Source: Ascidia mentula (taxonomy: Eukaryota; Chordata; Ascidiacea; Phlebobranchia; Ascidiidae). Taken from it: 64,000 nt of DNA. Under the pieces are notes generated by a model that saw nothing but the letters and a program-made list of their open reading frames with translations, was not told the DNA's origin and ran no database searches. Where the stretch lies: positions 1,010,001 through 1,074,000 of the forward strand of contig OX387201.1 of assembly GCA_947561715.1 (NCBI GenBank), read 5' to 3'. Made by a program: the position numbers and the translations under genes. Shown here piece by piece: positions 34,900 to 64,000 of the stretch. The first letter of the stretch is position 1. Every line of letters starts with the position of its first letter.

Positions 34900-37299
34900 A
34901 TGGCTTGCAGTTCATCAGATGACGAAGTTTCATGCTGCAATGATAGCAAGGTAATACCAACAATATGTATGGGCCTTGCAGTTTGCCAATAGAGTGTATT
35001 TTTGCACAAAAATGTGTTAATGGTCTATGAAAAGTATAATGTAAATCACTTTGGCATATATGATAATGATAGTCGCATGTTTACAGACTATCCTTACAAT
35101 GTTTAATTCCCCAGGCCAGTAGCTTAGACCTAATTTCATTTAAGACGTATTATTGATTTCTTTACAGCAATTGCATTGATTCTTAACAGAAATACCCAAT
35201 TTTATTGCACCTGATTAAACTTTTATGGCGACATATCCAACTTACAGATGAATTTCTTTTGCAGCACACAAAATTTTCCTACTTTGGACCACGTTTGGTT
35301 CCGTTTTTGAAAACAGCTTGCATATATATGGTTTTGGTTCCGGAGATCAACCCACCAAACGTTGTGGTTGCCATCTTCAAGTGTTTGCCCACGCTGAGTC
35401 TCTGTATTTTTGTTTTGTGGTGAGTCATAGTTGTATATCCTGTTTTCACAGTCGACCATTTACATGTGTAAACATACGTTTTTTCATGCAACTTTAAATT
35501 AACATGTCATAATACCAGTTAATAAATATATTTGCCTCACAATTGGACATGTTCAACATCACAACTTTAGTACCATTGATAGATTGTTTGTAAATTTGTC
35601 TAAATAGAACACATCACATTGCAACACTTATTGTTTTGTCACATGTTGCTCTTTGTGACCTAATTCAAAAACATCCATGAAAAATTATCTATTTTTTCAG
35701 GTATGATGGATTCAGTTTCACATCAAAAAACAATTATTCCAGACGAATTTTAGGAGGACTCTTGCTTTCAATGCTTGGTGATATTTGTCTGGTTTACGCT
35801 GATGAAGGCTACTTTTTACATGGTACTTTTGCCAAGGCAATATTTGTTTAATTCCAGTAAACTTAATTGCATCAATTTTCCCTTGGGCATCATTGCAATC
35901 AGTGTGTTTTGCAATTTATTCCTCAGTGTCCAATATAAGCAAAACTTTAAGGTCAATAGAATCCACAAGTGCAAATCCATGAAATGAATTAACACATAAC
36001 TTCGTTAAATTCAACATAAATATACATTGCTAAGACCTGACAAAACAAGTGTAAAATGTTGTAGCCTGATTTCTTTGCCTTGTCGGTAACTGGTTTTCCA
36101 CGACAGGTGTTGCAGCTTTTGGTCTTGCTCACATAATGTACATCTTCGCATTTGGATTCTACCCACTACGAGCTTCTCTGTACCTCAAACTGTCACCGAT
36201 TAGCTTCATTATCTACTGGTATATTTACAATGGATTGAGTGGAATATTCTTGAAAGTGGCTGTTCTCATGTACATTCTACTGATTTTGTTCATGAATTGG
36301 AGAGCCCTGGCCAAAATCAAGTAAGTTTGCTGAAACAAGGAATGAATAGTTACACCAGTAATATCATTTATAAGCAATAGGTAATGAGACACATATCAAA
36401 AAATCCTTTTGAGCAACGAAGTTATCAGCTTGCTTTTGACATTTTTTAAGTTGTTTAAGCCCTTGTATGGTTATGTTTGATGATAAACTGTTTTATCCAC
36501 CCACATACAAGTTACTAACAATGTGTTTTTGTGTGTGCTTCTTCAGACATCACAAACCCAATAGTTTTTACACAATGAACTATCATGCACAAAAGATAAC
36601 AACTATTATGCATGATATAATAAATACTTTATTTGAATCATGACATGAAAGATAATGCATTGGAGCACTGGTATATATGAGTACTGATAAGACCACAGAA
36701 GTTATTGATTCAAGCACCCGTGCAAAACATTACTTCCTTGTGGCTCCTGACATGCAAACTGTTGAAACCATGATGAATTGTTCATTCAGGCGTTGAGTTA
36801 TGAATAAAACTATGTCAAACCAAACATAACCATTGTATGGTAACTTCCTTAGGCGCGGGCGTTAAATTCCCAACAGGGCACACAAACTAATGTCATTTCT
36901 CAATGTCAAGGTTTCGTACAATTGTACCCACCGTACGTTCACAATTACTTCCATACTTTCAGATGCTTGGGCGATGTACGTGACGGGGTGAATGGTAAAA
37001 GCCACAAGAAGTGGACAGAATTGGTTGCTTGCCTTGGCGCCATTTCATTCTGTATTTCCGACGCCTGTTTGGCGATCAATCGTTTCCATTCTGACGTCCC
37101 ACACCAGCGCTGGATCGTCATGACAACCTACTATCTCGCCCAATTAGGATTCGCCCTTAGTGTGGTTAAGCATCGACAAATTAGGCGCAGGAAAATGCTG
37201 CGAAAGAAGGCTGACAGAAACGGGGACTCAACAACTGCAGCAGTGGAGTCAAATGGCACAGGATGCCAAGCACTGGAAGAAAAAGCAAAATGCGAGTAG
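34900..37299 (+). CDS. TMEM86: TMEM86-like lysoplasmalogenase (YhhN family), 5 exons
   Basis: Exons: 34900-34950, 35265-35419, 35701-35822, 36107-36320, 36963-37299 (stop TAG); 292 residues, all phases consistent. Family members are multi-pass ER membrane enzymes that cleave the vinyl-ether bond of lysoplasmalogens to an aldehyde and a glycerophospho-base. The protein is strongly hydrophobic with about seven or eight membrane segments. Family marks seen: LLLSMLGDICLVY (GD motif), GYFLHG, GLAHIMYIFAF, AISFCISDACLAINRF (SD motif) and TYYLAQLGFAL. The N-terminus is a short acidic/Cys peptide (MACSSSDDEVSCCNDSK). A basic tail of about 50 residues after the last helix (KHRQIRRRKMLRKK) exceeds vertebrate TMEM86A/B (about 226-240 residues). 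Whether it equates to TMEM86A or TMEM86B cannot be decided. Exon 1 is the least certain part. Confidence 0.88.
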
Positions 37300-41707: not shown

Positions 41708-44700
41708 ATGGGTAAAGAACTCAAGCTACTTCTTCTGATTTCTGCGGCGGCTACAACTGCATATGCAGGTTTGTATTTATTGTAAATTGCTGCTAAAAAT
41801 TTCTTGCTTGAAAATGTTGTGTTGTAAGATGGTCTGAGTTTAATAAACACAACTTCAACTGATTTGAAAAATTCTTAACTTAAAAAGTTATTCTTAGTTT
41901 TCGAATATGACAGGGATTGCTTTGGGTTTTTCCCTTCATAGCTACTGTGACCCCAACCACGCATTATCCTTATAAAAGTTTTTGTTCTAACCCTAATTTT
42001 GCAAAAACCGCATCATCCACTCTCGATGAAGGTCGTTTCGCCTCCAGTGTTTGAGGAAAACATAAAAACTAATGTTTTGTCCCATTTCCTGCACAGTGGC
42101 CATGCCGCGTTGCGATGGGCTCGGGTACAAATGGACCCAATATTTTGACGTCGACAACCCCACGGGAACTTGCGACTGCGAAACCCACGCGAAAATCACG
42201 GCCCAGTTCCCGAAGCTGATTTGCGCGAACCCCACGGCTGTTGATGCACGGGTGAAGAATATCAAGCTCGACTATCGGCTCACGGGGCAGAAGCTCTCAG
42301 TGAACAAGGGGGATGAGAAAGGCCTCCGGTGCCTGAACAAGGACAATTCGGGCGGTTGCCATGATTACGAGATTCGGTTCTGTTGCGGTAAGAATTTGTT
42401 GGTTGTTTTAATTAATGTGACACGGTATATGCGTAAGCGATGCGACAAAAAGACTGGGTAAATGTTACATGGGATTGCAGCAAACACGACTAATGTGTGA
42501 CGTGCATGCAGCGTTTTTGTGGAAGCAAATTAGGCAATGATGATTTCAGGTCACACAGTGCACTGTTTGCAGCACAATAACGTTTATAATCGGATTGCAA
42601 CGGAATATTTTGGCTCATTTTCTTGCAAATAAAACTCTTAGCAACGATCGAATAAAAAAACTGCCTTGTTGCCAAACTGCGATATTACATCTTCTTACCG
42701 GCGAAACTAATTGTTTATTTTTGATCTACACAGATTACGACGAATGCCAGGACAACCCGTGTAACCAACACGCAACTTGCCGTAACACAGTTGGAAGCTA
42801 CACTTGTACTTGCAAAAGAGGCTACACTGGAGATGGTTACCATTGTGAAGGTGGGACGTTTACAGTGAGAGTTAAAATTATACAGAACGAATGTTAACTG
42901 AACACAAAAATATGTCGCTTGTCAAAAAAATACGTTGCATATGCACCAGTTGCAATATTATGTCAAAAAACAAGCAAAATTCCGGTAATAAATCCAGAAA
43001 AGCAAAATTCTGCTGGACTTGTATTCATTTACTCACTTTGCAACTGATATTATTACCGGTTATTGGTTTTTCCTTTCAAGGAAAAATGTAATTGTTACAA
43101 AAGACACTAAACTTATTCGAGTCACAACTATATGTAAACGACCCATATTAATTTATTAAGTTGCCCCTCGCGTCTGCCCGGGCGGGTTCCAGTGGACCAG
43201 ATTCTACAACCGTGACAAACCAACCGCGAAATGCGACTGTGAAAAACTTGACGATCTCCGCCGGGAAAATCCGGGACAAATTTGCGCGAACCCGCTGGTC
43301 GTGGACGCACGGTTGGCGAAAAACAACATAGACTACAGGTTGGTCGGTCAGACGGTCACAATCGGCGGTGGAAGCGCAAACGGGTTCCAATGTTACAATG
43401 CCAAAAATCCTGGCGGTTGTCTCGACTACAAAGCTCGGTTCTGCTGCGGTAAGTTGTTATTCGGATCATAATTTAAATCAAATTATATAATAAACCGCGT
43501 CAGTCTAGTGACACTGAACTGTAGTTACCAAACCAGCAAAGTACGTTAAAAATACTGATTAAAAAATCAGTCTTTTTAACAGTGCGTTACCCAAAAAGTA
43601 CAATTCAGTTTAAACCAGACAAGAGCAATTCGCGTCCCTCGGGCCGAATCTGGTCCGTTTAGTCTTTTTCTGGCCCACTAAGAGTTTGTATAAACAAGGG
43701 TGGCCTTTGGAGTATAGTTTGTAACACATTTTTGCTGTTCGGTCATAGTATTTAGTTAGTGTTGTTGAACAAACGGTTATAACATGCCTGCATTTTCCCG
43801 CAGATGTGAACGAATGCGCAAGTTCACCTTGCCACGCAAGAGCAACATGCACAAACACACCGGGAAGTTTCAAATGCAGATGTCTACCCGGTTTTGTCGG
43901 AGATGGTTTCACCTGTTGTAAGTATTACCAGAGTGTTGGCTTTTGTTTGTAAAAGTATCGCCTATATCAGGGTTTTTCAAACAACGTAAAAGCTTCTTCA
44001 ATTAACAACAAGTTAAGAAATATTTCGTAAAGCCGCTAATATGAGGAAGTAATATATACTATAGACTGAGTTTTTTTTTGTTTTACAAGTTGTATTTTCC
44101 CACTTTAATTCTTACTGTATAGTGCTAATTTTAAAAACAGTCGACCTGAAAATTTCCATTGTGTTGTACCATTACAGTGATTTTACCACTAGCCTATATA
44201 TCGAACAGTAAGCGTTACAATCACTCACTTGTTACCAGTGATGGAATCGCTTAGGCAACTTTTCATAAAGTACAAAGGCTAAAAAATATTTAAAAATAAT
44301 TAAGCATTACAGAACTATTGCTGTACGTGCAACCCTGCATGGTATTCGTAAACTATATGCACCTGATTACAACTTTATATTCACTTACATTCGACTCTTG
44401 TGTTCAGACCCCGAACCTGTTTGCCCGTCTGGATTCAGTTGGACAAACTTTTACGACCGGGACAACCCAACTGCTTCGGGAGACATTGAGACCCTTTCCC
44501 ACCTAAGACAAGAAAATCCAGGACAGATTTGTGAGAACCCAAGGTCGATCAAGGTCAGAAGAATTTCCAACAAAGTTGATTATCGAGTTGTGGGACAAAC
44601 AGTCGAGGCTAGCGCGAGGGAAGGATTCGCATGCAGAAACAACGTCAATAATCCAAACTGCTACGACTACGAAATAAGATTCTGCTGCGGTAAGTTTTTC

Positions 44701-47700
44701 CGTAAACTTTAAGGGTTTCAAATGAACTTCAAAATTTGTTCTTTCATGAAAAAAACACAGTATGAATCACACAAGATATAAAAGAGTTTCCATTCAAATC
44801 AAACACTGAACACAGGGCTCATTCTTTAACGACAGTGCCCATTGTTTAAAAGAAAGTGCCTATTGTTTTTATTATTGTAGTTCAAAGAAAACAAACAACA
44901 TAACACACTTTACCTGGTGAAATTGAAAATTTTTCTGTCCCAAACTGGGCGAATATTCAAATTGTTTTGTTGTTTTTAGATATAAATGAGTGTGCTTCAT
45001 CACCATGCGATTCCAATGCTCAATGCACGAACACGCCTGGCAGTTTCACATGCCAATGCAACCCTGGGTATACCGGGAATGGCTTTAAATGCTGTAAGTT
45101 ATATACTTAAAGTTGAATCCTTGTATTTAGTTTACAGCACTAGCAACAATAATAGGACTAAGATAACATGATTAAATTAAATTTTATGTTAAATTAAAGT
45201 CAGACGACCTACAAATAAATGTTGCAGAAATAGTGACTTTTTGAAATTGAGACGCAATATTTAAGAATTATCTTCTTGGAAGTACATGAATTGTTATATT
45301 CCTTTACATTGAAAATCTTTATCTCATGTATATTTGTAGTCCGAATTCCAACATGTCCAACTGGCCACAAATGGACAGATTTCTTTGATCGAGATAACCC
45401 GACCGCAAGTTGTGACTGCGAACAGTTCACAGAACTGAGGAAAGAGAACCCGGGGAAGATTTGTGACAATCCCAACTCCATCGACGTTCGATTAGTTTCG
45501 AATAACAATGATTACAGGCGCGCTGGACAGAATGTGATTGCTGGTACCAAAGCAGAAAAAGGATTCCAGTGTCGTAACAACGTCAACAAACCGAAATGTC
45601 TCGATTACAAAATTCGCTTCTGCTGCGGTTCGTTCACATTCTGATTAGATTTAATTGTTTTTTTAGGTGTTAACACACTAACGCCTACTTTAATTTTAAA
45701 CCTTAATTTTTTTGTAACATTTTGTGCACTTTAATTTAAATTTATTTTATAATTATTGAAATCATATTTTGCCCGAGTGTTATCATACTGAAACCCACCG
45801 TTTTTTATTTGTTAACATTTTTAACCTTTTGTTATTTATAATCGTTTTTTTTTCTACTTTCTTTTTTATTAAACTTGAACTTCAGACAGTAACCCAATGA
45901 ATCTTGTACCACAGACGTCAACGAATGTTTAAGAAAACCTTGTCACGCCAACGCGAGATGCACAAACACACCAGGAAGTTTCAGATGTCAATGCAAACCC
46001 GGTTTCATAGGGAACGGTTTCAGATGTGGTGAGTTTGGTTTGCACATAATCCATAGAGTTTACTGAAGTGACCATCATGTTGTCAACGATCCCAAACGAG
46101 TTGACAAACCCTGCAAACATTTTTAATAGTTCGTCGTTTTTAAAATTAATGGTTTCTATTTGAACGAAAAAACCTTATGATTAAATTTCAATTAGAGAAT
46201 CATTACCATCTCACAAAACATTTAAGAGATTTCAAAATCCGTCGCCGAACAACAAGTTTTGTATCCACCTCCCGAAACGATATTATCATATCCAAAATGT
46301 TTTTTTTTTGCATACCACGACTTAGTTTCATCGTTTTGTTGCAGTTCCTGTACCCGTGTGTTCGCATGGCTACAAATGGACCGAGTTCTTTGACCGGGAC
46401 AACGGCGGAGGCACGGGTGACATCGAATCATTTCCTCTTTTGAGAAGCGAAAATCCAGGGAAAATCTGTGCCAACCCGACTGGTATACACGCACGACGAG
46501 TGTCGAACAGAGCAGATTACCGACTAACAGGTCAACGTATAACTGCGGCGACCTCCGCTGAGAAGGGTCTTGTGTGTAGGAACAGCATCAACAATCCAGA
46601 TTGTTACGATTACGAGATCCGATTCTGCTGTGGTGAGTTTCATAAAAAGTATTTGCATCGGAGTTTTGAAACAATTTTTTTTTGAAAACCCGAATGGTTT
46701 GAAGTTCAATTGAATATCAACATACAGAAAGTTTAAAGAGGTTAAACAATCCTTTTTTAAAATTTATTTTTCACCAAAGCTAATGAAACTGTTAGGTCGA
46801 AGCAGTGGCCCTGACTGCAGCTCACTGATCAAATAAATAATTATGTTTAACATGCTATATCATTAGTATACTAATCAATTAGGCGTGCTTGTTCTTTCGC
46901 CATATAAATTCCCAAACTCACCGATTGTTTATCGCTCAGATATTGACGAATGTGCGTCGAGCCCGTGTCACGTGAATGCAAAATGTACAAACCTCCCAGG
47001 AAGCTACAAGTGTGAATGTAATGACGGTTTCATTGGAAACGGTTTCGCATGTGGTAAGTGCAGTTTGCAACACCTACCTACAAGATACCGCTTAATTTGT
47101 TGCAAGTTACATCTGTTTGTTGGACATTCTTCCATTTACACAATTTTTTTAGTAAATACAATTGGTATATTTTATTTACTAATCATATTATTATTGCTAA
47201 TAATATATTATTGTTATAAAATTTACATTGTTTTCAACGCTTTAACACCATGTTCTTTATTTTTCATTTCATCGGTATTTTTTTGTGTTGCTTTGAAAGT
47301 TTATTGTAAATCATTTTAATGTCAGCCGGCTTACAAACGTACGCAGAAATCTCAAAACCTCAAACTAAAAAAAAACATTTTTTATGCAGTTACGAAACCT
47401 ACGTGCAACTTCCGTGGGCACAGATGGACGTCCTTCTATGATAGGGACGACCCGACCGGCGTCTGCGACTGCGAGAGGTTCAGTGAACTGAGGAAAGAAC
47501 ACAAAGGAATTTGTGCCAAACCAAAGGCCATACATGCTAGGGTCAAGGTCAGTGAGGTCGATTACAGACTTGCCGGGCAGAGGGTGACGGCTTACACAGC
47601 TGAAGAAAAGGGATTAGTCTGCTTGAACGACCAGAACCCAGGAAAATGCCACGACTACGAGATTCGATTCTGTTGTCGTAAGTTCTTGTTTTAAAACTAC

Positions 47701-47990
47701 GACAATATTAGCTTATTTCTTGCTAGCACAATAAAATCTTCTGGATAATGATTGGCGGCCGGCGTCGCAAATTTGCAAGTGTTATCACTTGTGCGTTTCA
47801 AGAAACCAAATTAACGCCAGTCCTGCTTCATAATGTCATAGCCAAAACGTGTTAAACAGAGTATATACCGTGAAGACTATATCCAGTACCACACAATATG
47901 CCGCATGCTTTTGTTTTGAAAATCCATACGGTGCCGAAGAAACTAAACCCAGTTAATTTTGTATTTACAGCATACTTTCCATTCGGTTGA
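41708..47990 (+). CDS. Secreted protein with six WxxW-type domains alternating with five EGF domains (13 exons)
   Basis: Exons: 41708-41768, 42097-42387, 42734-42850, 43161-43448, 43804-43917, 44408-44689, 44980-45093, 45340-45627, 45915-46028, 46345-46632, 46940-47053, 47390-47677, 47971-47990; 792 residues. A signal peptide ([20 protein letters not shown]) is followed by six repeats of about 95 residues (pattern [12 protein letters not shown]...CDCE...ICANP...DYR..GQ...GL.C.N....C.DYEIRFCC) separated by five EGF modules of the calcium-binding type (D-[IVY]-[ND]-E-C). The large repeat matches the WxxW domain of gel-forming mucins, FCGBP and CILP (W-x-x-F/W-FDxDxP, GL.C, C.(D/N)YE.RF.C). Every internal intron is phase 1, one domain per exon, as in shuffled modules. 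The last exon adds only PYFPFG. It is probably an extracellular matrix or mucus protein; no membrane anchor is seen. A TATA-like box precedes it. Confidence 0.9.
46793..46845 (+). repeat. Inverted-repeat element family A, fragment
   Basis: TAGGTCGAAGCAGTGGCC followed by CTGACTGCAGCTCACTGATC, matching the right half of the family A element. It lies in an intron of the WxxW/EGF gene. Confidence 0.45.
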
Positions 47991-48886
47991 GAATAACACC
48001 CTTGGCGTGGACCAACAGCACGACATACGACTTGGATACTTTACATGATTCCAACTTACACCATATCTTTAAGTTCCTGTTCTTGTAAATACAAATGCAC
48101 CTGCTCGTAACGTTACGTTGTATTTGTTGAGTCATGGTCGAATTGTCAGCAGAATATCTCGCAGTCACCTTGAAGTCAGGGCAAAGATAATCTGCTCGTT
48201 TACGAAGATCCGCATTTGCATGAAATAGGTGAAAAAATACCGCAGGTTTAGTCAAAATGACGCCTTTATGACGACATAGTCGGCCACTGAAATTATGCTT
48301 GGTTGAGGAAATTACGCCTTGATAAAAGTCTCTGGACCTCATTCCTAAACTTTTTTTTACAGAATTCACTGAACCAATTGTCCATTTATTTGCGACTTCT
48401 ACTGCGAGTTTAAACTAAAAGCACAGAAAAGGTTTCTCTTTGCAAGTTAAGATTAACATTTGTTGGAGTAAAAGGTTTTGAAGTTACAAAGGGCGAGGGG
48501 GTGCTTTCTAGTTGGAATTAAAGATTTGATCTTAGATTACATAAAGTTTAAACTTAGAAGAAGATGTTGACAAAAGAGTGGGGGGAAGGTATTGAAGCAG
48601 CAACCACACTAAAAAACTACGCAGTCTGGTCTGTGTTTAGTTTATAACCTACACTGAAAAGTTATTTTAACGTATCGAGTATAGCTTGTCGGTTAGATAG
48701 AAATAATATTACTCTGTTAACCTTCTCATCGTTTATATTTGTCAGCAAACCTTTGTGTTCGCTTCTGCCAAAATCTTACGGTTTATTACGTTATGTTTTT
48801 TACTTATTTATTTTAATCTGTGTACAAAGGTAGCTTAAAGCTAATTTCTACTACTGTTACTAAAACCTACATAGCAGCCTGTGTGT
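47991..48886. other. Convergent intergenic region, no gene
   Basis: About 0.9 kb between the converging stop codons of the WxxW/EGF gene (+) and the cystine-knot gene (-). It should hold both 3' UTRs and polyadenylation sites. A 134-codon open frame on the - strand (47965-48369) overlaps the last exon of the + gene and shows no family features. Confidence 0.6.
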
Positions 48887-50363
48887 TTAGAACACGAAGA
48901 TAGGAGCGCATGCACTTGGAATGTAAACGAACTCCAGTTCGATCTCAATCTTTCCGTCGATTTTCTTCACCGTCACAGCTCTCTGGCGTGTGTACCTTTG
49001 CTGACACCTAGCGGATATTGTTTGAGTTAATCTGAGTTCTTTAGGTGCTTATGGTTGTCATGTTACAAGTTCTTACAACAGTTTGTCGCCAACGCTGTTT
49101 GCATGTTATTCATGTGAAAACTAAATTTATGATTACAAAAATACTTAAGTAGCAGACGGCGACCTTAAGAAAACAAAACAAATTCCGTCTAATGGCATCG
49201 TCAGTTTCTGTCTTATTCAAATGTATTTGAGCTTTGCCAGATTTTGGATATTTTTGGACATGTAAAAAAATTTTTGGACAACTCTCAGTCATCACCGAGC
49301 AGTACAGACTGTTTCCGATAATTTTAATGACATTTTTTTTGTTCCCAATGAAGCACTGCCATTACTTCTGACACAAAAATCGTAGAACTTACTGCATTTT
49401 GGCTCCTGAGCATTCGTTCATATCAGTGCAAGTTGTCGTGTAAAACCACTGGAAGCGCGAATCATGGTGGAACAATTCGACTTCCTCATCAGAATCCTCG
49501 TAACGTCGAGCACGTGTCAGTGCTTTACGTTCAGTGACCTCATCACAGATGTTTCTTTCCTCTGGACAAGGTAAGTTTAAGTTAATTATGTTAAACTACT
49601 AAACGTCAACAGTGTCCCAAAGATGTAGGATAAGTTTCAACTAGGGGCTTGAAAGTAAAAAAAATCTTACCCGAATGATTGAATTTACACGAAAAAATAC
49701 TACAGAAGGCGATATTTTTAAGTAAGTGAATAAATTTATTAAATTCGAGTTTCTCACAACTATTTGGGACACACAAACAATTGAATTCTCACCGGAACGG
49801 CGTAATGGTAAGAATAGTTTATCAGATTGTTTCGGATTGTTCCGGCTCCTATTCTACCGCTGGTTTAAGTAATTATAACGAATATTAAACCACTTGGACG
49901 ATACATGTGTATCTGAATTTTTGTAATAAATGAGCCAGAACGTTCCACCGGTTCGGTTTGGCAACTTGGTTTTTGCAGTGGATGATCCACTTAATTACTA
50001 AATACGCGTTAAGGTTATATGGGGTGCTTTACCATAGCTAACAGAACGTTTCGATCGCGATAAGAGTTGAGCTAACAGTTGGTCCAGATGGTTGCTCGGG
50101 CTGTTCATACGATCCAAGATAAGCTCTCTTTCCGCTGAAGGAATCCTGTTCAAAAGTTCGCCGAAGGGATTGGGAACGGTTTCATCCAATTCGCTACTGG
50201 AAGATTCGAACGACCCAACACTGAAGCTTTCTTCTTTGTAAGTTGCCGGGATTTCGATAGGCAGGAACAGAAGTGCGCTGTGTGATGTAAGAGTTACAAT
50301 GATAAAACAATAAAAAACAATTCTTGTGAATTCGTAAGCTTTTTTAAAAAGGAACCAAAACAT
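48887..50363 (-). CDS. Prepro neurotrophin/Spatzle-like cystine-knot growth factor (3 exons)
   Basis: Exons: 50033-50363, 49393-49561, 48887-49007 (stop TAA); 206 residues. Residues 1-30 form a good signal peptide (hydrophobic IVFYCFIIVTLT, then SHSA). Residues 31-106 are an acidic, Ser-rich pro-region ending in RSKR (103-106), a furin-type site. The mature part is 100 residues with Cys at 116, 155, 161, 168 and 200. Family-like marks: NICDEV at the start (cf. VCDSV in NGF), FQWFYTTTC, CSGAKMQCQQRY and EFVYIPSACAP at the end (Spatzle proteins end with a similar IPS.C). The neurotrophin knot normally has six Cys; here the last one is missing (SACAP instead of C-x-C). Spatzle and neurotrophins are secreted dimeric ligands of Toll or Trk/p75 receptors. 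Which group it belongs to is undecided. Alternative: exon 1 starts at 50277 and is spliced onto the upstream EGF gene. Confidence 0.68.
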
Positions 50364-50770
50364 TTACACTGATAAGAAGTTACAATGGACTTTTTAATTC
50401 CAGTGCGTTTGTCAGTGGGCTGTACAACGTATATGTATAACCAGGACATGGTGCAATTGATTGATTTCATCAAATCGCACCGCGCGCCGCAGCTTACCAG
50501 AGAGACCAAGTGAAAAGGTCACTTCGGGTCATTTCTGGAGACAGGCCCCTTGTGATTAGTGTGGTGTATATTATTAGATATACCTATAGGTAGTTTTGCC
50601 TAGCAACATCTCTGCACCTAACCGTTAAGTTACGATACGCAATTGTTTTACAACATTCACAATAGGAATTTATGATAAGCTGATGCCTTAAAGACCGAGT
50701 CCAACGGATTTGAAACAACAGTTTTTAATTTGAAAAAAAAAAAGGACAGCAAAGATTTCGTCAGCAAGAC
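50364..50770. other. Short spacer between EGF gene and cystine-knot gene
   Basis: About 400 bases. On the - strand it contains a strong donor (CTCTG/GTAAGC at about 50499) and an acceptor-like TTCTTATCAG just upstream of the ATG at 50363. This could mean a non-coding 5' exon or a spliced-leader acceptor. An ATTAAA on the - strand (about 50724) could be a weak poly(A) signal of the EGF gene. No TATA box is clear. Confidence 0.4.
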
Positions 50771-53700
50771 TTACTGGAAAATTTCAAGCGCTTTTTCGGC
50801 CTTGCTTGATTGGAAGGTAGCCAACTCGCACATAATGGAAGCATTGTTTATGTCACAAGGTCCATTGTCCTCGGTACCCAACTCTGCGCTCACCCAGTAT
50901 CTGTAGTCCACTGGCACAGAGAATCAACAAATGGATATTTTAAACATAAACAGTTTTATACAAAATTGATACAAAATTCAGTGACTCTAAGACCTTCTAC
51001 TGAAAGTTCTGAAGCTTCTATTAGAAAAATTAACCAATCAGTGACCAATAATCATCACAAGCAGAAAGAAAAGGTTTATTTTCGCTTTCTTGCTCAAACA
51101 AATATATTTGGCTTGATAGAGTTTATTTAAATAAAAAAGTATACACTTATTTTAGCAAAATATATTTGTCTTGTGTAAGAAAGCGGACTGATTTTATCCA
51201 ACGAAAATAACCGTTCTCTGGCTGCCTGTGGTACCAAGTGCTTTAGGTAGAATTTTTCACAGCAATAGAATGAGGAATGATTTCCAGAATCAATTACAAA
51301 GCATTCACATAAACTCATTAAAAATTTGTGACGAAAATTATATTTGACCCAAAATTCAATTATATTAGTTTGTTCTTACCGATGCAAAACGACCCGTCGT
51401 AATTGATATCAATTAAATCGCTTGGACAGGAGCAAGAATACCATCCTTTCGTATTCGCGCAAACTGCCTTTGAGTCGCAAAAGTTGAGACTTCCATTCAC
51501 GCACTCGTCAATATCTGTAACGAAGTATTTGCTCGTTTTCACTTTGCTTAAAGCCAGCAGTAAAAATAAAGATAGCTAATCCAGTGCCAAAGTCACTAGC
51601 TGCACTGATGAGACCTTAGAGGTCGAGGTGCACCTGTCTGCAGTTCTCATTAATTATTATGGCTCTGATACACATAAACGATTGAATTTACACAAAAAAA
51701 TAAGCCAATAGGTTTTCGTGTACCAGGTGATGGGTTTTCGAGCAAGTGAATAAATTTACCATTTGGGTCACGTCACATTAGCCGCTGTGCACTTGCCGGA
51801 ACGCCGTACAGACAAGGGTTCTTTACATTTTACAATTAGATGTAAAATATTGATGGTAAGCTTTGCCACCTAAAACCTACACGTATGCGTCCTCCAGATG
51901 AATTTGCTCTTTTTACTATTCTTCCTTTTTAATCGTTATTATAGTCATTTTTTTTCAAACAACGTGGGCACGGACTTAGTCCATCTGGTGAGGTTTCATG
52001 CTTCAATAAAAAGCAAAGTTGCCTATTTGAACCATAGGCGAAATGTTCGTTTTTTTAACACAAGGGTTTATCAGAAACATAGTCAGACGTCATCTTACCG
52101 ACACATTCTTCTCCTTCCATGGTGTAACCACCGTCGCACGCACAGGAATACGAACCCTCTTCATTGACACAATGTGAGTTGTCCTGGCATTCGTAAGAAT
52201 CGTGGTAACATTCGTCAATATCTGCGATGTGAAAAGGTTTATTACAGATGTCTAATCGCGCCATCTTAAAGGGTTTAAGTTGAAAAATAAAAGCATCAAA
52301 CTAAGTGACAACAATTCTTTTTCTGAAAATTAATGAAACAAAACAAATATTTGCATTAAAAATATTAATGATAAAATATTAGTAAACAATGAATGTATTG
52401 ATTCGTAAAATGGACACCCCCCAAATAAATATTGCGAAGCCTTCTGTACCCCGACAATTTCAAACCATGAGATTCTGATTGCAAAACAATTAAAATTTAA
52501 TAAGGTTGAAACAATTAATCATACACTGAATTGAATTGTGTTCCGTCATGGAATATTATTTTAACAACTATTTGCGGAATAGATATGTATTTAAACGCGT
52601 GTCCATGACCACTAAACCTTCGTGACTTCGTTATGTATGAACTTTTCTTTACACACAAGTATACACTGAAGAGCTTGTTACGAAGCAACCAAATGGATTA
52701 GTCACAAATTAGGATAATTAATTGTCAGCTCTGTTGAGGAAATATAATTAAAATAGTTCCCTTTTCAATATAGAATGGGACAAAACATTATTAAATCATC
52801 TGTGGTGAATCATTTCTTGTTTCACTTAATCCAATTGCAACATGTTAAAATGGAATGAATTGTTTTAAATTGTTAATGAGTACATGTTATATATTGGTGC
52901 ATGCTCTAAATTAAGAGTACGCAACACAAACAGTGATACGTGCCATGTTTGTTGTACGCAATCTAACAAACATTTATGTGACTTTTTGTCCTAAAACCAG
53001 TTTGCAAAAAAGCCTCAACAAAACTTTGTTGGATGTTGAACATCATACGATTAAATGAACATATATTACCTGACATAAGTGAAAACCAGCCCGCGTGTCA
53101 GTTTTTAAACCAATGACGTGGCAAATTCAGCCTTGTGTTCCCACCCTCTATATATATACACCCATGCACAGAAAGAATTGTTTTGAATTGATTATAAACA
53201 CGTGGTGTATATTGGTACATGCTCTATACAGTGGTGGGATTCAAGTATTTAAGCATCCGGTTCACTCACTAGCAGCGTGCCATAGTAACCGCGGGAATAC
53301 AGTGCACGAAGTGAAACATACAGCTGAATCCCACTACTGTCCATACAGTTCCCTCTGCAGAGGAAAAAAGTGTTTCTGGGCAAAGTTTGTCGATAGAAAT
53401 GTAACTCACCGTTGCAACCATCAGATCCCCATCCATATCCTTCCCAACCGTGCGCACAATCGCACTCGTAACTACCGACCACGTTTTGACCTTCAGCTTG
53501 AAGGTGACACGCGGTGAAGGACATGAAGAAGCTGGGCTTGTACATGTAGTCGGTGAGGTTGACGAACGGTTCGCTAAAGTTCAGCGGGTTGTTGTTGATA
53601 ACGGCTAGAGAAAATTGGATGCAGGTCAACTTTTAGATCGGAGGAATTGACAACTGCGATGTTGACTGTTTTTGTTAATACAGGGTTGTTGGACAATGTA

Positions 53701-56700
53701 AAACCATTGATCATTCTTCGTGAGGAAATCACAATCACACATGGTTGCAAGCAAAAACAATAACATTTTTACTTTAATGCGAAGTGGAAAAAAAACGTAA
53801 AGGATTTTAATTTCCAACCAATATCGTACTGTAAAATGATTCGTCTTGTATTTGGTCGTAGAGCATTTGAACCAATTCGTCGGCTGTGTATCCGATAGCT
53901 GCAAAAACATCGTAAGAGTTGCTATAAAAATTTGTTGCATGTTTAGATGTAAAAGCGATTAACAGTCGTTTCGAGAACGCCATTTGACGAAATTCAAATG
54001 TCATGTAGAATTCACAATTTTCTGTATTTGTTCTTCGGTTTAATTGAATGAAAATGTGAAATCACAACTTACCGTTTCCAGGGTTAGCATCGTTGTAACT
54101 GGAGAGAGCATCATCTATCTCGTGGTAATCGATGTAAGAAATAAAATTGTCGAAATCTGCACGACAGCAATGATATAAGTTTACACAAAACAAAACGTTA
54201 AATAAAACATCCTTATTGGAAGCAAAGTGGAGCCAATAACACTGCTTATCATATGATTATTGTGTCACGGGGCCTGACGGCAATATTGGTTGAGCTTGGC
54301 ATGGCCATAGTGTTTCCACCATGTTTTGTCCGTAAAGTTGCACCTAGTTTGGTGCCCAACGGATGACGGCGATTGTAAAGTCACCACAAGGTGGAAGTCT
54401 TTGCTTGGCCGTTTGCTCGGCAAATAAGTCGTCTGATAGTCACACCAGCTGCACTGATAAAACCTTATAGGTCGAAACATTGGCCATATGTCTGCATCTT
54501 ACACAATCCTTATGGGAAACTTGTAAAAAATCTCAAAAAACAACATTATGGAAAATCTCACCTGACGGCTTCGAAAACCACAGTAAATTCGGGGAAATCG
54601 CTGGTGGGTAAAGAAGGGCTTTGAATCCTGAAAAATATGCAAAGTCAATAAATATGGGCGTGTACTTGCATTAATTGACGCGATCTGCCATTAAATGCAC
54701 CCTGTTTAATTTTGCGGAGTTTATCGTCTTTTGACACTTGAATTTTTTGCTCGAATTAGGCATTGCCAGTATTCCTGATTTAAGTAGAACAAGATGCCCT
54801 GGTGAGAGTTTAAATTTGGGACGAGCTTTAATATTGGGTGTGGTTCAAATTCCTGCGTAACACCGCTACTTGCCCGGATAACTATTGATGACAGTTCCGT
54901 TCATATCAATAAAGACGCTGTCTCTAAATACTGGTAGGACGTTGTACAAGATTGAACCAGATTCGACGAATCCGTTATCGTCCATGCATCGAAACACGAC
55001 CTCCCCAAAGACGTAATTGATTATGTGGGTGAGGGAGGTAAAGTCCTATAAAAATACCAGAATGAAATAAATATATAGTTAACATGTTTTTTTGGACCCA
55101 GTAATGAATTTGCAATAACACCTATTATAAAGGCAAGTATAAACCTTGTTTATATACGTTTATATAATCTACTTGTTAATTTTATCATTTGAGTTTCGAG
55201 TAACAAATTGCTCATAACAACACAAAAAAGTCCAAAAGCAAACTTTGAAACAAATGTTTTACTGAATAAAGATTAACGAAATAGAGTGTGTTTCAATTTG
55301 CACTAATATCTAGAGATAAACACAGAGATATAACTTACAGATAAATGATAGCTGCTCTGGAATTGAGTTTTCATGCAAGGAAGAATTTTAGTTAAAATAT
55401 CAGTGACCGTGTCCGCAGCTGAAGGACACATTTCACCTGCTGGAAAAAAAGCATTTATTAATTCTGCGGTTTGGGGTTTGGAGGGGGAAATTATTTCATA
55501 AGGATGACGTTAATTTTTGTGGCACGGAACGTCTCACGAAGTAAAAATTAACTAGCTGTGCCTAACGGTAAATTACTTTATATTTTTACATAATATTTCG
55601 AAAAACCCAAAATTATAAATATTTAAATAAGATATTTAGGGGGAGACGCACAGCCTCTCCTGTTTACGTCATTGCAAGTTTCGGGTTGATAAATTTGTTC
55701 GTCTGTTAATTTGCGATATTGGTTTTTACCCTTTTCATGCATAACCCTTGCTTACTTAACGTGCAAAAAAAATTAACTTACCTCCAGGTGCACCTAAGAA
55801 ACAAAGTTTTTCCTCGTCAATTTTTGCCGAAATAAAGACGATTTTACAATTACTGAAGCCGGGAATGCAAAAAATAATTGCTTGCTAGTTATTGGCGTGT
55901 GTGAAGCATAGATTGCAAAGTTTGCAACACCTTGTCCCTACTGCATGAACTCTATTATGGCTGCATATTCTACATCATAGTTGTAAAAAAATTATAAAAC
56001 TTTTACAGGGCCCAGAATAAAAAAAATTGGATTTATCAGTTTTGCAAAATTTAAAAAATCTAAAATATACGTGCTGTATTTTTACGACGTTTCGCCTGCC
56101 TTTCGGCGAGACTTGATACCACAATTTCAAAGTAAACTACACTAAAACATTCAGAAGCACAAAAAGGAAAAAAAGTACACGTTGACACGTGTCAGGGGCA
56201 AAACACGAAACACTGCGGGAGGCGAACAGTTACAACATTTAAAAAAATTAAAAAAAAGGTTGCAAACTTTCCATTCTGGCACAACAACTTATTTGATATT
56301 TTTCAATAATTTGGGTTTATACGTTGCTTTAGAAAAGTTTTAAGAATTTTTTGCAATTAATCTATTATCCCATATTGTGCACATTCAGTGTCACAAACAA
56401 AAATACAACCCTGCCAGGTTCGAAGAAGTATTGCAGTCTGTTAATTTGCGATATTAGTTTATACCCTTTCTGATGCATAACCCTTGCTTACTCAACGTGC
56501 AAGAAAAAATGAACTTACCTCCAAGGGAATCTGAGAAACAAAGTTTTTTCTCGTCAATTTTTGCCGAAATAAAGACAATTTTACAATTACTGAAGCCGGG
56601 AATATAAAAATTGTGATTATATCATTAACTTCGCCCTTGCTTATTAACGTAACGTGCAAAAAATGAACTTACCAAAGGGATCTGACGAGGAACAATCTGA

Positions 56701-59700
56701 TGATGGAATGGCTGCCTCAAGCTGCAAAATAGTTTTTCGTTAGTTTCGCAAATCAAAGCGAACGTGCTCCATACGCTACTGCGTTCCTTTTATTGAGTGT
56801 TGCGCAAAAAAACGATAAAAAAGCGAACAACGCCTAGATCTTCGTCATCTCGACTGCAAAGGTTCCATGTATGTACGGTTTTATGGGAAATTTAAGACCG
56901 TTGAACATTCGTATCAGTTTTCATTGTTGTGAATGGCTGTAACTCACCAGAGCAAAGAAATGATCATAGTCCGTGAAACCAGAAATTGATTCCAAGAATT
57001 CTGTGACAAGAGTTTGGTAATGACTGCGGTGAATGCTTTTATCGAAATTAATGTTCTCTGGGAAATCCACACATCCATATGCCGTCGACCTGAAATGGAA
57101 ATTGGGGCTGAGAAGAAAGGAAGTTTATGACTGGGGTGCCATGACGCCGTTCATGTGGATGTGGAAATTCATAAATGATAGTAGGAACTCAAGGCAATTC
57201 CGAACATACAATGTAAAGTTTTTGTTTCAAAGGCAGTAACTATGAAAATGTTTCCTCACGCAATCAACCTTACGCCAACACTTATTTTGCGTGACACAAG
57301 TAAAAAATTTAAAGTCAATTCCACAATCTAAAATATCCTTGTGTCTAAACGCTTTTATTTTTTGAAAACATGTTTCGCTTTAACAAGTTAGCACCTTAGC
57401 TTGTATTGTTGGCTAGTTCTATCATTTTATGTTGATTTCTGTTTATAAGGTTTCAAAACTGAATATGCTTAGTAAAGCGAAAATGTATGCGAAAAAGTAA
57501 ATCGTTTAGACGCAAGGTTATTTAAAATTATGAAATTGATTTTGAAGCAGGAAGAACCCAAGTGAGAGCATGAAAACCAAACGTTTAAAATTAAAGGAAT
57601 AACAGTTTTAAGGTACAAGTGTGAATCGGGGTGTGTTTTTCTTACCTTAAGACGTCGATAAAAGTCGTGGCATTCATATACGAGGCATCGAAACCATCGG
57701 CGTCAGGAAACCGGTCAATGACGCAACCCAACCAGCTAGCAAGTGTCACATCTAATGGCGAAAATTCGGTTTAAACAAACATGTTTAATTTACATAACTT
57801 GAGGAAGTCTCGCCGGATGGTGGACATAACGTTGGATACAACAAACACTTTTGTAACTCAAGTGCCGGAAAAACAATTCTTATTAAAAACATGTTTATTT
57901 CTGCGGTTCTCAATTTTTTTCCCCGTAGGTTTTCTTGCCAGTCGCAAACAAATCTATCATTAAGTCTTGCAACTTTGTGCCATTGTAAGTGCGCTGTGCA
58001 TTATTAAACTCAACAATAAAAAAGATCTCAACATATTGTTTGACTGTTTCAAAGAAACTGTATTAAACTATGAACATTTCCGATGAAAATGGTTGCACCT
58101 TCAAGCGCGTCGTTCATGCTGAAGAAAGCAGCTGTTCCCACCATCGAATCTGGGCACTCGCTCTAAAACAAAATATGAAAACACACCGGTATAAAATTAA
58201 AAGAGTCATAATATTCATTGAGCTACAGGCAGTTGTGCTGATTTAACGCAACAGTTACCAGTAACACACACAAGACATTCTGGATGGACACTGTGTGCAT
58301 CATATAGAGTGAATAATTTGTGCAAAAACCGTTTGGGTAAGAAACCAACGCAGTGTACGTTTGTTCTTGGTCGCCCGATTGCTGAGATCATTACTTAACG
58401 ATCTATGTTTACACTTGACTCTTCTACAGCTGTAGTGCTTTCACTTCGTTTAACAACAAACTTCCCAATGCTCATTTATAAAAAACGTTCAACAGCGATT
58501 CAAGGCTTTGCACATAGAAATATTACACAGTAGTCACACCTCCAACATGCAGTAGGAGGAATCTGTATTGGTCCGGACCATCCCGGTCGGACAAGAACAA
58601 CCAGGAACGCAAACTGCCGCACACATTTCGCCGGCGCATGTTCTCACGCATTGTCCGTCACATTCCGTTTCGATGAGGTCGCCAGCGCACAATATACCTG
58701 CATATGGATTATAACAATGTCAAAAGGTGCTTTTGTGCATAAAACGTTAAAAACAGAATGAAAAAGGCTTCCATCTATCGCAAAAGCAAAATGAGAAACC
58801 CATTTGAAACGTCAAACAGTTTAAAACGGTCGATTTTTTGTGTAAGTGTTACTGATGCGCTAACCAAAAACGTCTATAGCACAACATGTGTGGAATATCT
58901 TTTTTTAGCTCACTTAAACAGGAAACAAAAGTTTTTTGGAAACACTGCACTATTGGTCATGGTATTACGTACTTCCTGGCCTTGAAGTATCGATGACGAG
59001 TTCAACGAAGGTGGGCACCTCGACCTTGTACAACCCGTGCCACTGCAGGAACTTGGTGAGGAAAGGTTCGTCGAGTTCTAAATCATCAGAAAACATTGAT
59101 TCGCATTCAAGGCGTAATCGTGTTGTCGAAGTAATATTATACACGGACAAAACATCCTGATATTATTTTTACTTAAATATTCTGCCAACTTGCATCGAAT
59201 TATCAACGAAAAAGTGCCTTTTACTGTTATGGGATGCTTTATAAGCAATTAAATATAACTTATATGGTCGCGCTTAAAGGAGATTGAATATTCCAACATT
59301 TCGCTCGAATACACCAAGAGCTGGTCCATGAGCTGCAGACCATTTCGACCTCAACAGCTAAATGATCATTGTTGGCTTATTTGTACAAAGACGTGTTCCA
59401 TTATTTGACAACCAAACGTTACCGCTGCATTCTCCAATCATTCCGGACCCAAAGAATCCGCTGTCGCATTCACATTCATACGATCCCACTGTGTTGAAAC
59501 AAGTGGCGGCGTTTGGATCGCACAAGTTTTCCCCTTCGCACTCGTCGACGTCTGCAAGATTTGCAAAAAAATTAAGTAAGATCCGAATAAGATTGAAATT
59601 AAACCCTCAAAAAAATTAATTAAAAAAATTAATTAAACTTAATTTAAAAAATAAGTTTTTTGTAAAATAACTTGACCTATAATACCAAAGACTATAGGAC

Positions 59701-62064
59701 TACCAAGTGTGAACAACGCAGTAAAGGAGCGGCTTCGAAACTTTTCCAATAGCAACAAACGGAAATACGTCGCATGTACGAACTATTTTGTTCACCAACT
59801 TTCCTGAACGAAAACTATACCATCCCAGACCTAAACATTATAACATGACATTTATTTTGGTCAATATACTCACCCAAGCATTGCAGTCCGGATCCATAAT
59901 ATCCTTCTGAGCATGTACATAATGTGGGAGCGTCGTTAGAGCAGACGGACGAAAAATCGCACGGTAAGTAATCAGTCAACGCATCGATGATGTCAGTATT
60001 CACGTAAGGGTACAACAGTCTGAGCGAGTTGTCGTAGGGCGCCGTTTCATACTTGGTCGTCGGGATTGTGTCAATTTGAACCTAAAAGTGCGGGAATGAC
60101 AACCGGATCACATAATAGCAATAAAATTCGTAATGATACTATTAAAATGTAAAACTGGTTGCTTAGTTTCAGCAGACAAGCCCTCGATTGGTATTGTCTT
60201 GTCAATATGTCAAAATGTGAAATAAATTTAATTGCTTGAAACCACTCGTTTCAATTTGTGCAACAGAGAAACACAGAAATCTGTACTTGAGATAATAAAA
60301 TAAGCAATTAGCAACAGAAAGAGTGTTTCCGACTGGGCGCAGGCCCGAGGTCGAAACTTGGCCGGTGTGTCAACAGATTGATAAAATAGAAAAATAATGG
60401 ATAGAACACAAAAGAGCATTATGTGCAATTAACCCTCACCCAAGCATCAGCCTCGGAGATGGTTCCTTCCATGAGAGCGTCCAGCAATTCCTTCGAAGAC
60501 AAGCTGACTGCAGCAAAAACTTCACAGTAGTCGCCCTCTGCAGAATTGCACTCGTTAAATATTGGACTTAAAATCTTCATCGTATATGTTAACTTAAAGT
60601 ATCAAAACCGAGCATAAAAGTTTTAGTAGGCCAAATTTCTTGGTTAAACATAACTGAGCCTTCCTGTATTATGAAGTGCAGTAGAAAATAGTTATACGCA
60701 AGTCAACACGCAAGACGCACGAATTGTTAAGTTAACTTGTAAAACCTCCGCCTCGTGTTCGGGCGGTAATTGTTCGTGATTGAGACAGCAGTTTTAAATG
60801 GCAAATCGACCCAGAGCTTCAGTATCGTTTATAACAAAGGTTCCCAAGCGGCTCTCTTTTCATTGGGAAGTTGTTTTGTTGGGTATTTTGAGAGATATGT
60901 GGCAATTTTTTCCACTGTGTGATTAGATTTTATACAGATGTCTCTTGCCGGGAACAACTTTGTCCACCCCTGTGATAACGTTAACCACATGGTGGTTTCC
61001 TGCGAATTGTGAACTTTGCACCTGGCATATCCGTATAGTAACAGGTTAGGAAACACTGTTCCACAGGTAATAAAACCTTATGATAATTATGTCACAAACC
61101 TTCGCACTCTCCGGCGTCGTTCAGCATATGTCCAGGTAAACAAGCACAACTGAAACTTCCCATAGTATTGAGGCATTCGTAGTTGGCCAACAAGTCCATG
61201 CATACGTCAGTGGAGGGGTCGGCACATTCGTCGATGTCTGTGAAAAGTTACAAAAAGGGTTGAAAAATGTCCTGCACAAATGTTGATCAACCTGGAGTAA
61301 CACCAAATTAACACCGTATTCAATATGTTCGCAACACCGCGCAATTTCTCTGCGGCGTTTTTTCTCTTTGGCGCTTACTGCAGACAATCGCGCCTTTTTC
61401 GTCTAGAACTCTAGACAATCGCGCTTGTCAATGCAGGGCACGAGATGAAACAACAAATAAGATTCCTTGTTTTATTCAATATTTTTGTTCAAATCTTATC
61501 ATCAACCGCATGCACCAGGATCATATTTTACTGTATTTGCATTTTAAGTTCAGAGACCCAAGTTAACGCCTGTTTTGCAGAAAACAAATTGTTTAAAATT
61601 GTACTAATTTCGCGCCCTGCTGTTAAATATTGCTGGACGAAAACAAAATGGGAAGTTTGGCCAAGTTCCAAAAATGCCCTCCTCAATATTCACGGGGTGG
61701 GCGCTTGGAAATTTCAGTGCAGAAAAACTGGTAATTTGACGTTAGTTTGTTTATGAAAATGAATAGAAGATGGGTCATTTCATTATTCTTGTTTGTTTGT
61801 TAATTATATGAAGTTTACGTTCGCCTGGCTAATTGCGATCGCTGTTTTGTTGTATTGCAAAAGTTTAACTTAGTTTAATTCTGTTTTTTCTTTCTAAATT
61901 CGGGTTGTTGATAGAAACGAACGTTAAAGGGGTGAAAATCGTACACGTCGGTCGTACGTTTGCCCCGCTGTCTCCCAGACAGGCACCACATACGTAAGTT
62001 CTTTCTAAGACGGTGGGGCCATATATGGGGCTCGACATGAGGCTGGTGTACCTGCTTCGGCGGT

Positions 62065-62104
<40 letters not shown>

Positions 62105-64000
62105 GGCCCCTGCGCAAGGATGACACGCAAAATCGTGAAGCGTTCCTCATTTTAATTATTTTATTAAAAAACGGGGTGAAAAAAAAATAAACTTTTTCGA
62201 ATTTTTTATTTTTCGCAAAAAGTTTTTATTTCCTGAAAAAATACACTCTTTTAAACAGTTTTCGATCATTTTTAAGTCGGAGTACAATTATAAACAACTG
62301 AAAAAAACATACCTTGGCAAACGCCGTCAACCATGTCGAAGCCGGTATCGCAGACGCACGAGTAACTTCCCAGTTCGTTATCACAGTAGCTCACTGAAGT
62401 GTCGCAGTCGTGCGTTCCCATATCACACTCGTGAATGTCTGGAACACAAAATATTTAACTGTTAAGTTGGCCCAGTGTGATTCTTTAAGTTTTTGGCATG
62501 AGAAAAATGTAGTTAGCACAATTTTATGTTGACCTAGACCTAGCATTACTGCATGGCACATAGAAAAAATTTTTATAATTTCTTTGCGAGTGACCATTGT
62601 ACAGGAGTTTCACGGATTGCCAATGAATTGTGGATATATTTTCACAAAAAACGCAAATGTTTTTCTTTACAGTGGATAGATTGAAACCAGTACCTTCGCA
62701 AACTGTTACATTTGATCCATCTGGAGTAATGTCGTTGAAGCCAGCTCGACAAACACAGCTGTACGTGTAGTTTCCGTTTACACAATCTGTGTATTCTTGG
62801 GAGCTGCATGGGTTTTCGGTGAATGCACATTCGTCCAGATCTGCATGTTCCCAGAAAGAGTTTTAAGTAGATTTATCTTTCTCTAGGTTAAGGTTAAGCT
62901 GTCATACGCACGCGCCACACAAACTAGCCATACAAAACTTACCGAACTGTGACGTAGGCAAACCTTAAATGTCCTCATACAAGCATACAATTTAATGAGC
63001 GTTAATTTTTGATAGTTAACTGCTTCCAAACACAGGAAAAATGAAAACACATACTGCACAGCCAAGCACAACAACTAAACTTAACGAAAGAAATCCCGCC
63101 AAAAGATTAAGACAATGTCACTATTGTGAATAATAAATGCAGTGACGTGTACACGCATTGTTACGTAATTGAGTACTGCTACCATCACTCGCCACCAATA
63201 ATGGCGGCGAGAATTTGCAGGTGATATATAGGTTTTTGATTAATAAAATAGGAAGTTACCAGTCTGAGAAACTAAACTAAACCTTTGGTTTACACCAAAA
63301 CTAAACATTTTTGTACAAATAAATGCAAATGTCACCTGACAGTTCTCCTGCATCCCCAATAACATCTTCAACTTCGGCTAATATTGCCTCCAACATGTCT
63401 GGCGGTACTCCAGTTAGTGTGATCGTCAAAGCACCTTAAGGTTTAAATGATACTTTAACCACAATGTTACCTATACGGTTATTCTGCCCACTCATATTTT
63501 GCCGGATATTTTAGCAGTGGAAAATTATCAGACTGCTTAAATATTTTTTCTACTGGTAAATGTCAAACAACAATAGTCAATATACAAGTGATTCTTACCC
63601 TGTTCCACTTGGTGAAATATATAACTATATGGCCCGGTTATTGTAATATTACTGCCACGAAAAGTTTTACTTGTCGTCTTATGTGTTCATGCAAAACACA
63701 ATTGTAATGACACAAAGGTGGATCTAAACATTCATTCCAAAAGCATTAATGGCATTATTTTCGACGCTAAAAACACGGTAGGAAAAGACACGCGTCTTAA
63801 CAAGGTGATGAGTAGACACATATTTTTAAACCACCTTTCTGTTAGCCGCTGTACGTTCAGTGTTACAAAATATTCTAGTGCGAGCCGAGCTTCGTCCTAT
63901 TCGACCCCTTTTGGAACTTCCCTTGCAACAATGCAATGCAAAAGTATTGAAAGTTTCCCTTACGATATCCGCACTCACCTGTTTCCTGGGTTTGTCCTGG
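50771..64000 (-). CDS. Large EGF-repeat extracellular protein (25 exons in window, 5' end missing)
   Basis: Exons: 63979-64000 (partial), 63336-63434, 62694-62840, 62313-62438, 61100-61237, 60440-60537, 59874-60081, 59423-59551, 58973-59077, 58540-58697, 58099-58162, 57646-57751, 56948-57089, 56673-56721, 56519-56530, 55782-55793, 55339-55439, 54874-55045, 54562-54627, 54073-54156, 53830-53898, 53410-53604, 52099-52221, 51380-51514, 50775-50910; about 900 residues, all phases consistent. EGF modules with calcium-binding openings (DLDEC, DIHEC, DIDEC, DVDEC) are in exons 3, 4, 5, 8, 23 and 24; Cys-poor or atypical EGF-like ends (exons 7, 22) alternate with stretches I do not recognise. Exon 10 is a TIL-like Cys-rich unit. 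The last exon reads CAG TAA, either a stop at 50771 or a CA/GTAAGT donor joining 50277. Probably a secreted or matrix protein; no membrane helix is seen in the window part. Confidence 0.8.
51597..51665 (+). repeat. Inverted-repeat element family A, half copy
   Basis: CTAGCTGCACTGATGAGACC, then TTAGAGGTCGAGG and CTGTCTGCAGTTCTCATT: the inverse of the GGTCTCATCAGTGCAGCT core plus the outer end of the 21583 element. It lies in an intron of the EGF-repeat gene. Confidence 0.6.
52222..53409. other. Long intron (1.2 kb) of the EGF-repeat gene, no gene
   Basis: AT-rich DNA between exons 22 and 23. A phrase ATATTGGTGCATGCTCT near 52893 recurs with one change near 53209, a small local duplication. 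No exon with acceptable splice sites and phase was found. Confidence 0.45.
54228..54520. repeat. Family A-related longer copy
   Basis: Begins GTGGAGCCAATAACACTG (compare 21105 and 11895) and ends with AGCTGCACTGATAAAACCTT and ATAGGTCGAAACATTGGCC, the family A right half. The middle about 180 bases are not shared with the short copies, so it may be a longer parent-like copy. It lies in an intron of the EGF-repeat gene. Confidence 0.5.
55701..55873. repeat. Duplicated segment carrying a 12-nt microexon (copy 1)
   Basis: Matches 56436-56610 over its whole length with few changes (shared GTCTGTTAATTTGCGATATT, CCCTTGCTTACT, AAACAAAGTTTTT, CCGAAATAAAGAC, TTACTGAAGCCGGGAAT). On the - strand it contains microexon 55782-55793. 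Confidence 0.88.
56071..56201 (+). repeat. Dispersed repeat family B, copy 2
   Basis: Matches 7968-8103 (opposite strand) across GTGCTGTATT, ACGACGTTTCG, TTCGGCGAGACTT, GATACC and ACTAAAACATTCAG. It lies between the two duplicated microexon segments. No coding capacity. Confidence 0.7.
56436..56610. repeat. Duplicated segment carrying a 12-nt microexon (copy 2)
   Basis: Second copy of the segment at 55701-55873; on the - strand it contains microexon 56519-56530. A third, partial match (56633-56680) covers the 3' end and donor of exon 14, which suggests that the exon end was the source. Confidence 0.88.
62021..62027 (+). promoter_or_regulatory. TATA box of the U6 gene
   Basis: ATATATG lies 21-27 bases before the U6 start, the expected position for a Pol III type 3 promoter. 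A proximal sequence element should lie about 30 bases further upstream (around 61970-62000), but I do not know the tunicate consensus well enough to call it. Confidence 0.6.
62048..62153 (+). ncRNA. RNU6: U6 spliceosomal snRNA
   Basis: A 106-base gene with the 5' stem GTACC...GGTAC, the invariant ATACTAAAATTGGAACGATA block, the ACAGAGAAGATTAGCATGG core (ACAGAG binds the 5' splice site), GCGCAAGGATGACACGCAAA and a 3' TTTT terminator. Differences from vertebrate U6 are limited to the 5' stem and the last bases (CCTCATTTT). A TATA-like box at 62021-62027 fits Pol III transcription, so it is probably functional. It lies antisense in the intron between exons 4 and 5 of the EGF-repeat gene. Confidence 0.95.

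Follow-up and report, generated by a model that had tools for sequence, protein, structure and literature searches.

A three-exon gene in the genome of the ascidian Ascidia mentula probably encodes a growth factor that is secreted, processed by furin and derived from the neurotrophin/Spätzle superfamily, and it appears to be present as a single copy. Judged from its sequence, this candidate is a real-looking, very divergent relative of that superfamily, and it plausibly works like neurotrophins and Spätzle. It falls outside the canonical membership of both families, because it misses both Pfam cut-offs and lacks the equivalent of NGF Cys110. The gene lies in a 64,000-nucleotide stretch of DNA that was analyzed as a whole (the window), on contig C69 of a searched genome of 195.8 Mb in 79 contigs. 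The accessible part of the published assembly description (PMC11109543) gives 197.0 Mb, 95 scaffolds and nine chromosomes, the copy searched here being slightly smaller; with the help of that text the window was assigned to about 1.01-1.07 Mb of chromosome 5.

The candidate is read from the minus strand as a 621-nt frame encoding 206 residues, which is immediately preceded by an in-frame stop and continues unbroken across two GT-AG introns of 471 and 385 nt, in phases 1 and 2 (Table 1). The coordinates, strand, length and RSKR motif given in the initial annotation are borne out by the DNA, and the phrases that it singled out (ICDEV, FQWFYTTTC, CSG, CQQRY and YIPSACA) are all present. The prepro-protein layout that it proposed also agrees with our reading: a predicted signal peptide, with peak hydrophobicity over an 11-residue stretch at residues 15-25, is followed by a pro-region, the RSKR motif and a putative mature domain of 100 residues (11.9 kDa, pI 5.2); the precursor has no N-glycosylation motifs. 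The fit of the splice phases, start, stop and AATAAA counts in favor of a real gene, and the genome search found no second copy of it.

Table 1. Features of the candidate gene and of its surroundings, numbered from the first letter of the window
Feature	Position	Strand	Description
Exon 1	50363-50033 (331 nt)	-	begins with the start codon and the hydrophobic N-terminus, followed by the pro-region, RSKR and the first mature-domain residues; 3' border TATG/GTAAAG
Exon 2	49561-49393 (169 nt)	-	Cys I (residue 116), Cys II (155), Cys III (161); borders CCAG/AGGAAAG and ATGCA/GTAAGT
Exon 3	49007-48887 (121 nt)	-	carries Cys IV (residue 168), the C-terminal pair of strands, Cys V (residue 200) and the stop codon
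Acceptor-like AG	50369..50370	-	ends TTCTTATCAG, 5 nt upstream of ATG
Signal-peptide-like start	50277..50363	-	residues 1 to ~29; from hydropathy and reading, with a predicted cleavage point
RSKR	50046..50057	-	residues 103-106; furin-type cleavage motif, from sequence
AATAAA	48812-48807	-	polyadenylation-signal-like, 75 nt beyond the stop codon
Dynein heavy-chain motor exon	9232-9561	-	PF12775, 83.5 bits; adjoining frames of this strand appear to belong to the same gene
YhhN-family exon	36853-37296	+	PF07947, 53.9 bits
WxxW/EGF gene	42066-47691	+	Mucin2 WxxW domains alternate with EGF domains; orientation convergent to that of the candidate
Exon of the WxxW/EGF gene	47320-47691	+	PF13330, 74.8 bits; remaining copies recognized by reading alone
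Open frame	47968-48414	-	149 codons, just downstream of the candidate; several cysteines, no Pfam match
Large EGF-containing gene	50771-62862	-	directly upstream of the candidate on the same strand; EGF_CA above cut-off in three reading frames, TIL-like match just below cut-off

The acceptor-like TTCTTATCAG before the start codon is a possible site of spliced-leader trans-splicing. The Ciona spliced leader followed by GT, whose sequence is confirmed in the accessible text of PMC7986045, is matched exactly at 1,830 places of the genome (931 + 899) and at none when the pattern is written backward; the tunicate origin assumed earlier for this DNA is thereby supported. Among the first 100 of these 1,830 places, the spliced-leader genes form long tandem arrays of 719-720-bp units on contig C1 (15239664-15315846), with single copies elsewhere (L041-L048).

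An alternative that we regard as quite unlikely is that the locus holds no working gene of this kind and the model is a chance join of frames, a decayed relic or a set of exons that belong to a different transcript, for instance that of the EGF gene upstream. In that gene the exon at 50771-50923 apparently carries a donor, for which no following exon was found, and its phase would fit exon 3. Codon usage leaves the matter where it stands: the exons rank 12th of 38 (exon 1), 60th of 452 (exon 2) and 165th of 1,048 (exon 3) among open stretches of the same length, the true frame outscores the other five in exons 2 and 3 and does not in exon 1, and the training frames were verified only in part. 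With a dynein exon as control, the score resembled that of exon 2; this test thus has little power and does not discriminate. The search for orthologues, likewise, gives such an alternative some room. In a protein collection whose sources include NCBI, nr, UniRef and EukProt, the whole precursor drew 136 word-sharing candidates, none with E up to 1, and the mature region drew one, with none at E up to 10; candidates in this search must have five-residue words in common with the query, and it may therefore overlook orthologues that evolve fast or lack annotation. Against the alternative stand the three in-phase exons with intact frames, the stop ahead of the ATG, the hydrophobic start, the well-placed RSKR and the AATAAA, together with a similarity to known ligands that spans the join of exons 2 and 3. 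Moreover, the candidate reads as probably separate from the EGF gene, because its start follows a stop and the phase of exon 2 misfits the last visible exon of that gene.

The affinities of the product were addressed with 24,736 Pfam models, of which Spätzle (PF16077), NGF (PF00243) and PDGF (PF00341) each carry a curated cut-off of 27 bits. Spätzle was the best match of the mature domain (21.5 bits, E = 3.7e-4), 6.7 bits ahead of PDGF (14.8 bits, E = 0.035), and the only match of the whole precursor (19.1 bits, E = 0.002), all of these scores lying below the cut-off; neither NGF, at E up to 10, nor IL-17 (PF06083) was reported. Thus, of the two families to which the initial annotation had pointed for a profile search, Spätzle came out on top at a score short of its threshold and NGF did not appear. 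Known neurotrophins behave similarly on the Spätzle model, the goat NT3 precursor scoring 20.1 bits, the pilot-whale NGF precursor 20.6 bits and the mature domain of human BDNF 22.4 bits. By this yardstick the candidate and proven neurotrophins, which likewise miss the Spätzle cut-off, stand at much the same distance from Spätzle. When the genome was searched in six frames with the same model, with the best first-look candidates scored, a single place, exon 3, came up at E up to 10 (18.8 bits, E = 0.33). In the PDB, fly Spätzle was retrieved at a non-significant E of 0.22, alongside an EGF chain that is unrelated (0.23), and with the whole precursor as query it fell to E = 1.4, below unrelated chains. 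A search of the protein collection with a mixed alignment gave 723 matches dominated by vertebrate NT3 and NGF, the named rows among the best 120 being all vertebrate and some rows nameless; this shows merely that the collection contains such eukaryote proteins.

Pairwise alignments agree with a relationship to both families. When the candidate was aligned with Spätzle of the fly, with NGF and with BDNF, no shuffle attained the real score in any of the three cases, among 2,000 full shuffles and 2,000 with the cysteines fixed. In a second run the z-scores were 5.8 for Spätzle, 6.2 for NGF, 6.5 for BDNF, 4.38 for NT3 and 5.1 for NT4; by this measure the candidate is closer to each of the four neurotrophins than is fly Spätzle itself (4.7, 3.2, 3.4 and 2.0 against NGF, BDNF, NT3 and NT4). 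A joint profile built from 17 neurotrophins and fly Spätzle gave the candidate 18.9 bits, the top of 4,000 shuffles being 11.1. Together with the Pfam match, these results uphold the earlier claim of relatedness to neurotrophins and Spätzle; the suggested role as a link from vertebrate neurotrophins to Spätzle is more than they can prove.

NGF is held together by the disulfides Cys15-80, 58-108 and 68-110, and Spätzle has six knot cysteines plus one between its subunits. In the candidate, the alignments supply five of the six knot cysteines (I to V), in order and in context, along with an NGF/Spätzle-like C-terminal strand pair. The position of Cys VI, which lies in the final CVC of NGF and the final CKC of Spätzle, is a proline (CAPI). 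A complete knot of the cystine type named in the initial annotation is thus not borne out, the mature domain having five cysteines, a count that the annotation does not give, in place of six. Since Cys VI is absent, the ring of the standard knot has no way to close and a spare cysteine remains, for which a disulfide between subunits, as in Spätzle, would be the most economical reading.

The comparison with Spätzle itself (Drosophila Spz C106, PDB 4bv4 and 3e07) reveals a pro-protein with an acidic domain (pI 5.2 as against 5.8), a similar Cys I-II distance (38 as against 36 residues) and parallel ends (CQQRYTRQ...YIPSAC in the candidate, CKQHYTQQ...FKIPSCC in Spz). It differs from Spätzle in lacking the last cysteine of the CKC end and in a Cys III-IV loop of 6 residues in place of 13. 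With the vertebrate neurotrophins (NGF, BDNF, NT3 and NT4) the candidate shares the order of signal, pro-region, RSKR and mature domain, the last of which, at 100 residues, falls in the range of roughly 100-120 that follows the dibasic cleavage in those proteins. The five cysteines align with those of NGF, and their contexts are comparable: ICDEV with VCDSV, FQWFYTTTC with FKQYFFETKC (a common F-x-W/Y-F-x-T-x-C pattern) and CSG with CRG. An annelid neurotrophin likewise carries RSKR, according to the accessible text of PMC4812194.

These shared features, the z-score of 6.5 against BDNF and a neurotrophin-only profile of 100 rows, on which the candidate scores 8.8 bits and fly Spätzle 3.7, are what would speak for a true, fast-evolving neurotrophin orthologue that still signals via a Trk-like receptor. 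We consider that reading improbable, more so than the absence of a working gene. The 8.8 bits are weak evidence when taken alone, because 2 of 2,000 full shuffles and 6 of 2,000 cysteine-fixed shuffles reach them, and, with the NGF model silent, membership in the neurotrophin family proper, as first suggested, is not supported. The domain also departs from NGF in its pI (5.2 as against 9.0), in the absence of the final CxC and in a Cys III-IV loop of 6 as against 11 residues. The best Pfam NGF match of the genome lies elsewhere (C67, 15.2 bits, E = 2.85), is chance-like and, when read, was set aside for want of the NGF cysteine pattern. The gene structure differs as well: the candidate has three coding exons, whereas the accessible text of PMC3280201 places the vertebrate coding region in one exon. 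The same text describes two types of neurotrophin gene in pre-vertebrate chordates, with a single coding exon in one type only.

The putative receptors bear on the same question. With the human TrkB kinase domain as query, 35 matches were obtained at E up to 1e-10 among the 129 of 442 candidates that were scored, the long ones being at most 39% identical and the short ones up to 58%. Six loci were inspected, and in five of them a kinase could be read: by our reading two had SH2 domains and the others were Axl-type, DDR-like and insulin-receptor-like, one each; no Trk-like kinase was recognized among these five frames, which is a weak negative given that they represent 35 matches from a partly scored set. 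There are also seven TIR matches in the genome, one of which (L007) reads as a protein with leucine-rich repeats, a membrane span and a TIR domain, that is, a Toll-like receptor. The TIR-matching open frames of L007-L009 and of a third copy on C71 measure 995-1,095 codons, and the C71 set forms a tandem triplet near 10.01-10.03 Mb. Because no Trk-like kinase was recognized and TIR/Toll-like genes are present, we infer that a Toll-type or a new receptor is more likely than Trk to be the partner in the predicted pairing.

The least probable of the readings that we weighed is a divergent member of some other cystine-knot family, above all PDGF/VEGF. The candidate has the C-x5-C-S-G spacing of that family, with Cys II-III distance and CSG in common; PDGF-B aligns at z = 4.35, about as well as NT3, a single one of 1,000 full shuffles attaining the score in each case; and the PDGF profile gives a weak match (E = 0.035). 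Against this, the Spätzle profile ranks 6.7 bits higher, the Cys I-II distance of 38 residues contrasts with 26 in PDGF-B, there is no final CxC, VEGF-A reaches a z of 1.3 and the genome has a clear PDGF domain elsewhere (C67, 54.4 bits). The PDGF identity was set aside on the profile rank and this separate gene, in spite of the PDGF-B alignment. IL-17, TGF-beta, VEGF and glycoprotein-hormone identities were discarded by alignment (z of 0.6 for IL-17A, 2.8 for TGFB1 and -0.9 for CGA). The Pfam IL-17 model has nine matches in the genome, seven of them above cut-off and none at the candidate locus; IL-17-like exon clusters lie at C70 13146075-13161574 and C71 3137584-3142953 (L050-L052).

What counts against descent from the neurotrophin/Spätzle superfamily is the sub-cut-off Pfam scores, the non-significant PDB match, the near-equal alignments of PDGF-B and NT3, the lack of an orthologue in the collection and the absence of Cys VI. 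The literature provides few points of comparison. The remark of the initial annotation that neurotrophins are hard to identify in tunicates accords with the accessible portions of PMC2772990 and PMC2586362, which describe Ciona as lacking or having lost them. An echinoderm relative with 33% identity is rejected as a true neurotrophin in the available text of PMC1868935, and that of PMC7535936 states that no further neurotrophins were found in bilaterians. In the literature searched, a partial coverage from which subscription papers are mostly absent, we found no report of a tunicate neurotrophin or Spätzle.

If the candidate is indeed a ligand of this superfamily, its layout suggests that it would be secreted, that the pro-region would help folding and that a furin-type protease would cleave after RSKR to release a 100-residue domain that dimerizes. 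The fold would probably be held by the Cys I-IV and Cys II-V disulfides, and, with no partner left for Cys III, this spare cysteine probably joins two subunits as a covalent dimer. On a broader view, which we put forward tentatively as a possibility rather than an expectation, a neurotrophin/Spätzle ligand may have survived in tunicates, in one ascidian lineage or more, so altered that standard searches pass over it. The loss of Cys VI would have opened the knot, the dimer would have become covalent via the freed cysteine and a Toll-type or new receptor would have been adopted after the loss of Trk. If true, this would be a chordate ligand behaving more like Spätzle than NGF. The loss described for Ciona, as far as the accessible text of PMC2772990 and PMC2586362 goes, creates a gap that lies between amphioxus and vertebrates, and a surviving ascidian relative would correct that story of loss. 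It would also give the closest invertebrate relatives of vertebrates such a ligand without a recognized Trk and make a chordate pairing of the Spätzle-to-Toll type testable, and the candidate would be a natural example of the fold minus one knot disulfide.
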